From an uncultured Amylibacter sp. (GTDB lineage: Bacteria > Pseudomonadota > Alphaproteobacteria > Rhodobacterales > Rhodobacteraceae): DNA of 64,000 bases. The DNA lies in NCBI GenBank assembly GCA_905182285.1, contig CAJJAY010000012.1, forward strand, positions 1-64,000, written 5' to 3'. Every line of letters begins with the position of its first letter. The stretch's first letter is position 1. The notes beneath the pieces are model-generated. The model did no database searches. It was not told the origin of the DNA and was given only the letters and a program-made list of their open reading frames with translations. Below are positions 43,512-50,249 of the stretch, in pieces. The position numbers were made by a program, and so were the translations under genes.

Positions 43512-43543
43512 AAAAATAGCGCTGAAAAATCAGCGCTATTTTT
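43512..43543 (-). terminator. rpsA intrinsic terminator
   Basis: AAAAATAGCGCTGA-AAAT/TTTT loop-TCAGCGCTATTTTT, perfect stem just after the rpsA stop. Confidence 0.92.
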
Positions 43544-43558
43544 ACATTATATTTTTAT

Positions 43559-45238
43559 TTAATCGTTACTTTTCAAAGCTGCACCGAGGATATCACCTAA
43601 TGACGCTCCAGAGTCTGAGGAGCCATACTGTTCAACAGCTTCTTTTTCTTCCGCAATTTCACGTGCTTTAATTGATAATCCAAGTTTACGAGTTTTTGCA
43701 TCTATTGATGTTACACGTGCATCTAACTTATTTCCCACACTGAAACGCTCAGGGCGTTGCTCAGCACGATCTCGAGATAAATCTGATCTACGAATAAATG
43801 CCTTCATGCCATCGTATTCAACTTCAATGCCACCTTCTTCGATAGATGTAACTTCAACTGTTACAACTGCTCCACGCTTAACTCCTGAAACTGCTTCAGC
43901 AAAAGGATCTTGACCTAGATTTTTAACTGATAAAGAAATACGCTCTTTCTCTGCATCAACATCTATTACAACAGCTTTTACGATATCACCTTTTTTGTAA
44001 TTAGCTAAAGCTTCTTCACCAGATTGATCCCAAGCCAAATCTGACAAATGAACCATACCGTCAATCTCACCTTCAAGCCCAATGAACAAACCAAATTCAG
44101 TGATGTTCTTAACTTCACCTTCAACTTCAGCTCCTTCAGGGAAGTTTTTAGCAAAACCTTCCCATGGATTACCTTGTGTCTGTTTTAAGCCAAGTGAAAC
44201 TCTGCGCTTATCTGTCTCGATTTCTAAAACCATTACTTCAACTTCTTGTGAAGTTGATACGATCTTTCCTGGATGAACATTCTTCTTTGTCCAGGACATT
44301 TCAGAAACGTGAACTAGTCCTTCAACACCTGGCTCTAACTCAACAAACGCACCATAATCAGTAATGTTTGTAACTCGGCCAGTGTGTAACGATTCTAATG
44401 GGAAACGGGCAGCAACATCACCCCATGGGTCATCCTGCAATTGCTTCATTCCTAGAGATATACGATGTGTATCTTTATTAATCTTTATAACTTGTACTTT
44501 AATCGTTTCACCAATTGTTAAGACTTCAGAAGGATGATTTACCCTTGACCATGCCATATCAGTAACGTGAAGCAATCCATCAACGCCACCTAAGTCAACA
44601 AAAGCACCATAATCAGTAATGTTTTTAACTACACCATCTACCGCATCACCTTCAGCTAATTTGCCTACAATTTCTGCACGCTGTTCAGCACGTGATTCTT
44701 CTAGAATAGCACGACGAGAAACAACAATATTACCTCGGCGGCGATCCATTTTAAGAACGATGAATGGCTGAGCCATTCCCATTAAAGGTCCTGCATCTCT
44801 GACTGGACGGACATCAACCTGCGAACCAGGTAAGAATGCTACCGCTCCGCCTAAATCAACAGTGAAGCCGCCTTTTACGCGACCAAATATTGCACCATCA
44901 ACACGTTCTTCTGATGCATGCGCTTTTTCCAATCGATCCCAAGCTTCTTCACGACGAGCTTTTTCACGAGAAATAACTGCTTCACCACGCTGGTTTTCAA
45001 CACGATCAAGAAATACCTCAACAGTATCTCCAACTTCAATTTCGGGTGCTTGACCAGGGTTTGCAAATTCTTTGAGGTCAATTCGACCTTCCATTTTGTA
45101 ACCAACATCAATAATGGCCTGACCAGATTCGATTGCGATTACTTTACCTTTTACGACAGAACCTTCATCAGGTGTGTCAATGTCGAAGCTTTCGTTTAAG
45201 AGGGCTTCGAATTCCTCCATTGTCGCTTTTGCGCACAT
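43559..45238 (-). CDS. rpsA: 30S ribosomal protein S1
   Basis: Repeated S1 domains (VKNITDYGAFVDLGGVDGLLHVTDMAW etc.), 559 aa, downstream of cmk. Confidence 0.97.
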   Translation of the reverse strand: MCAKATMEEFEALLNESFDIDTPDEGSVVKGKVIAIESGQAIIDVGYKMEGRIDLKEFANPGQAPEIEVGDTVEVFLDRVENQRGEAVISREKARREEAWDRLEKAHASEERVDGAIFGRVKGGFTVDLGGAVAFLPGSQVDVRPVRDAGPLMGMAQPFIVLKMDRRRGNIVVSRRAILEESRAEQRAEIVGKLAEGDAVDGVVKNITDYGAFVDLGGVDGLLHVTDMAWSRVNHPSEVLTIGETIKVQVIKINKDTHRISLGMKQLQDDPWGDVAARFPLESLHTGRVTNITDYGAFVELEPGVEGLVHVSEMSWTKKNVHPGKIVSTSQEVEVMVLEIETDKRRVSLGLKQTQGNPWEGFAKNFPEGAEVEGEVKNITEFGLFIGLEGEIDGMVHLSDLAWDQSGEEALANYKKGDIVKAVVIDVDAEKERISLSVKNLGQDPFAEAVSGVKRGAVVTVEVTSIEEGGIEVEYDGMKAFIRRSDLSRDRAEQRPERFSVGNKLDARVTSIDAKTRKLGLSIKAREIAEEKEAVEQYGSSDSGASLGDILGAALKSND

Positions 45239-45336
45239 ATATAAGTTCCTTCATATATTTTTCGGGCCACGCGGTTTTTCCCACGGGTCTTTAGGTTAAA
45301 GTTACAATCATACTCAATATGGATCAGCTACAAACA

Positions 45337-45444
45337 CACAAAAGGCCGGATATTTCCAGCCTTGCCTTACCAACAGATGACATAAGCCACCTAAAACAGT
45401 ACAATCTCGCGTGCGTATAGGGTATATTCTCCATAAGGTAAAGG
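45337..45444 (-). ncRNA. Candidate small RNA or rpsA leader/attenuator with its own promoter and intrinsic terminator
   Basis: Minus strand TTGAAT-N17-TATAAG (45479-45451), then about 108 nt ending in AAGGCTGGA-AATA-TCCGGCCTT-TTG (45363-45337). Confidence 0.5.
45340..45363 (-). terminator. Intrinsic terminator upstream of rpsA
   Basis: 9-bp stem AAGGCTGGA/TCCGGCCTT (one G-U) with a short U-run, minus strand. Confidence 0.7.
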
Positions 45445-45450
45445 TACTAG

Positions 45451-45479
45451 CTTATAAATTCAGATTCTTTATTATTCAA
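45451..45479 (-). promoter_or_regulatory. Sigma70-type promoter TTGAAT-N17-TATAAG
   Basis: Near-consensus -35/-10 with 17-bp spacing on the minus strand. Confidence 0.6.
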
Positions 45480-45536: not shown

Positions 45537-46070
45537 TTATCTACTAAATTGATCACAAAATGCCTGAAAATTATCATTTCCGTTGTTACAATATTTTCGA
45601 ATAATACCAATCTGCCATTCACCATCACAATTTATTGAAATCTCATTTCTTAATTTAGTAAATTTAGAAATAAATAACATAGAATCTTCTTCTAATTTTT
45701 CGCCATATTTATTTAACTGATGTATTCTTTTAGTTATGTTTTCATAAATTTTATAAGTTGCTTCATACTTTTCCCAAAATTCTGAATTTGAAGGGTTTTC
45801 TTTTATTTGCTTTTCTATTTTTTGGATCTTTAATTCGTACAAATTTAACTCAGATAAAAGTGCGTCATATTCTTGATTATAATTTACACCATCTAATTTA
45901 TATTTTTTCAACATGCTTTGATACTCTGTAAGAGTATTTGATTTATTTGAACACTTCTCAAAAGCCAGCGGACTTTGATGAATTTCCTCAGCGTTTAATG
46001 AAAAAGTTAGCAAGAGCAACATCGAAAGAAAATAAAAAAATCTCAATCTTACCCTCCCAAGTAATATCAA
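45537..46070 (-). CDS. Hypothetical exported coiled-coil-like protein
   Basis: Signal peptide (FFYFLSMLLLLTFSLNAEEIH) then Lys/Glu-rich helical region; no family recognised. Confidence 0.65.
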   Translation of the reverse strand: MILLGRVRLRFFYFLSMLLLLTFSLNAEEIHQSPLAFEKCSNKSNTLTEYQSMLKKYKLDGVNYNQEYDALLSELNLYELKIQKIEKQIKENPSNSEFWEKYEATYKIYENITKRIHQLNKYGEKLEEDSMLFISKFTKLRNEISINCDGEWQIGIIRKYCNNGNDNFQAFCDQFSR

Positions 46071-50184: not shown

Positions 50185-50230
50185 TGCTCCGTTTATAAAA
50201 AAACTTACTTCAGGTAGCCGTTATAAGTTT
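50185..50230 (-). promoter_or_regulatory. SAM/SAH-type riboswitch in the metK 5' UTR
   Basis: Minus strand AAACUUA-UAACGGCUACCUGAAG-UAAGUUU then UUUUUAUAAAC-GGAGC-A before AUG; 7-bp P1, AACGGCU-x-CCUG core, possible pseudoknot with the GGAGC Shine-Dalgarno. Confidence 0.82.
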
Positions 50231-50249
50231 CATGTTTAGTATCATAATG

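Follow-up and report, generated by a model that had tools for sequence, protein, structure and literature searches.

Ribosomal protein S1 is essential for the translation of most mRNAs in Gram-negative bacteria. As far as one account of the gammaproteobacterial system describes it, S1 binds single-stranded RNA rich in U or AU. It also represses the rpsA mRNA, whose start region has no good Shine-Dalgarno, by competing there with S1 bound to the 30S subunit, and this autogenous control is conserved in several gammaproteobacterial families (PMC10931766). Within that account and a 2020 catalogue of ribosomal-protein leaders (r-leaders), a structured S1 leader is described only in gammaproteobacteria (PMC10931766, PMC7247131). 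Some r-leaders are known to work through conditional terminators (PMC7247131). Termination inside a leader can also yield an RNA product: UpsM, a short RNA, is made when transcription stops within the mraZ leader, which polymerase reads through about once per hundred transcripts (PMC5089854).

Here we examine a window of 64,000 nucleotides from an uncultured Amylibacter species (Rhodobacteraceae), in which a sequence-only reading had singled out positions 45337-45479 as a possible small RNA gene or, alternatively, an attenuator in the rpsA leader. Comparison among relatives shows a leader with a conserved fold; throughout the family, genomes have about one copy, placed immediately before rpsA. 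We think it probable that the singled-out piece is the middle of this structured rpsA 5' leader, and that the leader acts in cis as a ribosomal leader in which a terminator-like hairpin (H4) serves as a leaky attenuator and S1 is the likely signal. The structure is kept across almost the whole family, and it is therefore probably how these bacteria tune S1 production.

A conserved promoter ahead of the leader

A full-length rpsA relative was found in nearly all genomes searched, and upstream regions were aligned for relatives fetched via their rpsA (n = 30). The sequence-only reading had proposed looking for conservation in relatives, and promoter, helices and place before rpsA are conserved in 30 of them. 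The TT and TATA letters of TTTACC-N17-TATACG (45442-45414) are kept in 100% of the sequences scored (n = 29), and 24 of 28 other genera have CTTG-N18-22-[TG]ATA at the equivalent position, against 0.11 expected from shuffles. The conserved -10 predicts that transcription most likely starts at about 45408-45406, within the small RNA originally proposed. The structured leader would thus run for ~165-170 nt, from a start near 45407 to the rpsA start codon; we infer its status as a 5' UTR from the conserved promoter. Sequence upstream of the leader varies among relatives while the leader itself stays, which supports a promoter of its own. In this window, a 177-aa ORF with a likely signal peptide (45537-46070, minus strand) lies between cmk and rpsA.

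Two other promoter elements had been suggested. The letters of TTGAAT-N17-TATAAG are present (minus strand 45479-45451), but the columns are unconserved, with the commonest letter at 28-55%. Promoter-like sites in the stretch also show no excess over shuffles (11 found, 15.3 expected), and for both reasons we regard this match as chance level. A second -10, TATGAT (45312-45307), is likewise present as letters but turns out to belong to the 3' strand of H1, a conserved RNA helix. No conserved promoter was found between H4 and rpsA in the 28 other genera, and merely two of them have a TATANN- or TATGAT-like sequence between H4 and the next hairpin, H5.

Table 1. Elements of the rpsA leader in the window, listed in the direction of transcription
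Feature	Position	Strand	Remarks
-35 element TTTACC of rpsA leader promoter	45437..45442	-	CTTTACC/CTTG in relatives; TT in 29/29 aligned
-10 element TATACG	45414..45419	-	17 nt past -35; TATA in 29/29 aligned sequences
H1 5' strand (GATTGTAC)	45399..45406	-	pairs with 45306-45313, across the supposed terminator
H2 small hairpin (GGTG..CATC)	45376..45391	-	includes the GC-rich AGGTGGC block; two-sided changes in 4/4 pairs
H3 5' strand (GGTAAGGC), outer helix around H4	45364..45371	-	covaries with 45321-45328
H4 terminator-like hairpin	45342..45363	-	9-bp stem, 100% of cells paired
U/G-U tract TTGTGTGTTTGTA after H4	45329..45341	-	terminator tail and/or single-stranded protein site
H3 3' strand (GCTGATCC)	45321..45328	-	duplex test and covariation
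H1 3' strand (GTATGATT)	45306..45313	-	contains TATGAT; duplex test and covariation
H5 hairpin AGACCCGTGGGAAAAACCGCGTGGCC	45265..45290	-	precedes rpsA across Alphaproteobacteria
Shine-Dalgarno AAGGAA	45246..45251	-	7 nt ahead of ATG; from sequence
rpsA, ribosomal protein S1, 559 aa	43559..45238	-	ORF

Long-range helices bridge the terminator-like hairpin

The GC-rich blocks pointed out in the sequence-only reading are present as described, and the 110-nt segment it had marked folds mildly better than shuffles (z -1.66). Folding of single sequences pointed to pairing between the leader's 5' end and a segment downstream of the supposed terminator. Folded alone, the window leader has a minimum-energy structure containing H1, H2, H3, H4 and H5, with H3 here limited to four firm pairs at a pairing probability of 0.38. 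Single-sequence folds and duplex tests together revealed the helices, which were then modelled; MAFFT alignments alone misplace H1 and H3.

Both bridging helices are favoured by their own species' partners. In a short-strand duplex test, own-species strands of H1 paired better than between-species swaps (mean -11.1 vs -8.0 kcal/mol, z -5.3), as did those of H3 (mean -10.3 vs -6.9 kcal/mol, z -6.7), differences to which shared base composition could add a little. On whole 5' and 3' halves the duplex test is uninformative, because the G/U-rich tract pairs with everything.

Covariation points the same way. A covariance model built on 8 sequences matched all 27 input leaders, the 8 included, at 24-159 bits. 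Across these 27 sequences, 95.0% of cells are paired and 20 of the 34 pairs show two-sided changes, amounting to 125 two-sided cells vs 38.8 in shuffles; 0 of 500 shuffles reached as high, and sliding the partners by 1-3 columns left 37-44% paired. A set of 48 sequences that included 28 from newly fetched genera gave 93.4% of cells paired, 24 of 34 pairs with two-sided changes and 249 two-sided cells vs 76 shuffled (0 of 500 shuffles as high). In this larger set, H1 changes on both sides in 8 of 8 pairs, with 92.5% of cells paired, and the outer pairs of H3 do so in 5 of 5. Because the model alignments are made to fit the structure, they are biased towards it; hence the importance of sliding the partners, of shuffling and of the duplex test, which does not depend on these alignments.

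The promoter thus lies elsewhere than first proposed, conserved pairs bridge H4, and no conserved promoter intervenes before the gene; for these reasons the functional unit runs into rpsA and is not the ~108-nt small RNA from 45444 that had been suggested. Nor does the transcript end proposed about 100 nt before rpsA agree with conserved helices that join bases on either side of it.

Three further features lie near or beyond the 3' end of the leader. An A-rich stretch follows H5. In this AT-rich genome the Shine-Dalgarno sits in the loop of an 8-bp A/U hairpin (45237-45259, minus strand), which is not obvious in GC-richer relatives. Just past the end of rpsA, a strong 14-bp palindromic hairpin with a T-rich flank (43512-43543, listed on the plus strand) is probably the rpsA terminator.

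The leader is tied to rpsA across the family, and H5 beyond it

In the source genus the first model matches 27 of 33 genomes, 26 of them strongly, with one match per genome except for one genome that has a weak second match. Family-wide, the same model (8 sequences) matches 132 of 299 genera and a refined model 289 of 299, mostly once per genome; about 268 of the refined-model matches, as read off the table, have E < 0.001. Loci fetched with model R1 lie directly before rpsA for all 26 strong genus matches and all 28 matches in other genera, and the only two R1 loci found elsewhere scored weakest of all (E 0.01 and 0.06). A search of a phage collection gave no match.

Outside the family the refined model matches few genomes, and its best matches are at rpsA, through H5. 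Of 289 alphaproteobacterial genomes sampled, 48 carry the 26-nt H5 pattern, with about one copy each. Among 30 such loci outside the family (L107, L108, L121-L148), 28 are immediately upstream of rpsA, one is at a contig edge and one is elsewhere. In other families, an H5 model detects the hairpin at 14 of 43 rpsA loci with E <= 0.0011, and looser H5 variants were seen by eye in further loci. Two variable inner pairs of H5 covary, with 16 and 11 two-sided cells.

The hairpin, its tract and competing explanations

The terminator-like hairpin noted from sequence is there: a 9-bp stem (45363-45342) followed by TTTTGTGTGTTTG, whose stem, U-rich tail and flanks are conserved and which is for that reason beyond chance. 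T makes up 61% of the 12 nt that follow H4 in the 21 leaders parsed from other genera, vs 13% ahead of H4 and 24% further on. The GC content of these 21 leaders is 50-65%, and the U-rich tail is kept in GC-rich genomes. Such a T-rich segment is the signature of either an intrinsic terminator or a U-rich protein site. The tract in the source genus is broken by Gs (TTGTGTGTTTG), so termination at H4 may be weak or absent. A TATA-like sequence separates H4 from H5 in only 2 of 28 other genera, so transcripts of rpsA most likely continue past H4, and the hairpin would be no more than a leaky attenuator. Inspection by eye turned up no conserved antiterminator able to pair with the 5' arm of H4. In other alphaproteobacterial lineages, T-run hairpins that resemble terminators or attenuators occur ~80-150 nt upstream of rpsA (L125-L127 and L141).

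One alternative, possible if somewhat doubtful, is a purely structural or translational leader, in which H4 is no terminator and the tract is a protein-binding internal loop, for S1 or S1-containing 30S, between H4 and H3. The tract UUUGUGUGUUUGU is nearly invariant in the source genus, Gs included, and lies inside a covarying helix frame, as such a loop might, and the preference of S1 for U-rich single strands, as far as it is described, would suit it (PMC10931766). In other genera, however, the tract changes letters and stays T-rich directly after the stem, like a terminator tail, and the same place is occupied by a plain TTTTTGTTTTTG terminator in a sister lineage (L090/L107). Loci L107 and L141 of the sister lineage carry a plain terminator ahead of H5.

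It is unlikely that the main role of the locus is to make a stable, short, trans-acting RNA by termination at H4, with rpsA served by occasional read-through. The conserved hairpin with its U-rich tail and the same-family precedent of UpsM in the mraZ leader (PMC5089854) speak for such a product, but the strongest covariation, in H1 and H3, bridges H4, and the terminated RNA would be without it. Moreover, rpsA must be highly expressed, which makes near-complete termination at H4 unlikely.

An independent ~108-nt small RNA gene transcribed from 45479-45451 is very improbable. Promoter-like and terminator-like sequences are present, but relatives do not conserve that promoter and instead keep one further downstream, and the element is always tied to rpsA, unlike a free-standing gene with its own promoter and terminator and no downstream tie. 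The 36-codon ORF (45434-45324) does span the hairpin, but its first codon falls between the -35 and -10 elements, ahead of the likely start of transcription, and in eight of eight relatives checked the frame is interrupted after 9-17 codons; we therefore reject leader-peptide attenuation, which would have a conserved short ORF overlapping alternative hairpins, as next to impossible. What survives of the proposed rpsA leader attenuator is the placement of the block in the rpsA leader, with its conserved terminator-like hairpin and U-rich tail; its leader-peptide form does not.

A model for control of rpsA

The reading we prefer, a cis-acting leader with a leaky attenuator, can be set out as a sequence of steps. 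The leader would adjust rpsA expression in cis, most likely in response to free S1, the probable ligand. H4 and its tract would form a leaky intrinsic terminator that sets how much transcription continues, and S1, preferring U-rich single strands, could bind the tract. Polymerase that stops at H4 would release an RNA of 65-75 nt, a possible UpsM-like by-product. Once polymerase had read past H4, H3 and H1 could form, and H5 would govern how accessible the start site is. Such control would explain an intrinsic-terminator signature before an essential, highly expressed gene.

A bolder form of this model, which we offer tentatively, is that the locus belongs to an unrecognised S1-sensing leader of Alphaproteobacteria, with H5 as its ancient core and H1-H4 as an attenuator added in Rhodobacteraceae, exerting dual control and releasing a short RNA. 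If so, H5 would be an S1-responsive core at the start site, and the long-range helices would bridge an intrinsic terminator within the added module. A single leader would then govern both transcription and translation of rpsA and free a short RNA.

Comparison with known leaders

The alphaproteobacterial rpsA leader is likely undescribed so far. An Rfam check, also proposed in the sequence-only reading, drew a blank: neither this leader nor any of 16 related loci reached the gathering score of an Rfam 15 family, and matches were only chance-level when this leader and one other were searched permissively. Elsewhere in the window, 50185-50232 (minus strand) matches the SAM/SAH riboswitch (RF01727, 47 bits), which fits the lineage; that motif, located upstream of metK, is reported to be restricted to Rhodobacterales (PMC2864571). 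For Alphaproteobacteria, the 2020 r-leader catalogue lists L2 and L17 in its Table 1, which contains no S1/rpsA entry at all (PMC7247131). No paper on an alphaproteobacterial rpsA leader was found in open-access text; because the search was of open-access text, priority is likely and unproven. The leader would give a new RNA family for annotation, and a covarying leader across the family together with an H5 core across Alphaproteobacteria makes S1 control in the class directly testable.

Our best reading is that the RNA element is real and conserved and belongs with the ribosomal leaders, with a putative regulatory function. Like the catalogued r-leaders, it combines covarying RNA structure with a consistent place before one r-protein gene, here rpsA (PMC7247131). 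With UpsM, its nearest precedent in the family, it shares the Rhodobacteraceae as host group, a long 5' leader and an internal terminator to be read through, with no second promoter before the gene, here judged by sequence features (PMC5089854). The two differ in their operons, mraZ/dcw and rpsA, in the covarying helices that bridge the terminator here, and in that the rpsA leader is known from sequence alone.

Another close system is the gammaproteobacterial rpsA leader. As far as it is described, its fold is different and no terminator-like hairpin is mentioned, and its translation initiation region has no canonical Shine-Dalgarno, unlike the good AAGGAA here (PMC10931766); the gammaproteobacterial S1 mechanism is therefore not simply transferable. 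Within the same description, the likenesses are a structured region with hairpins, U/A-rich single strands between them (here the U/G-U tract and the A-rich stretch), a single gene and S1 as the obvious ligand (PMC10931766).
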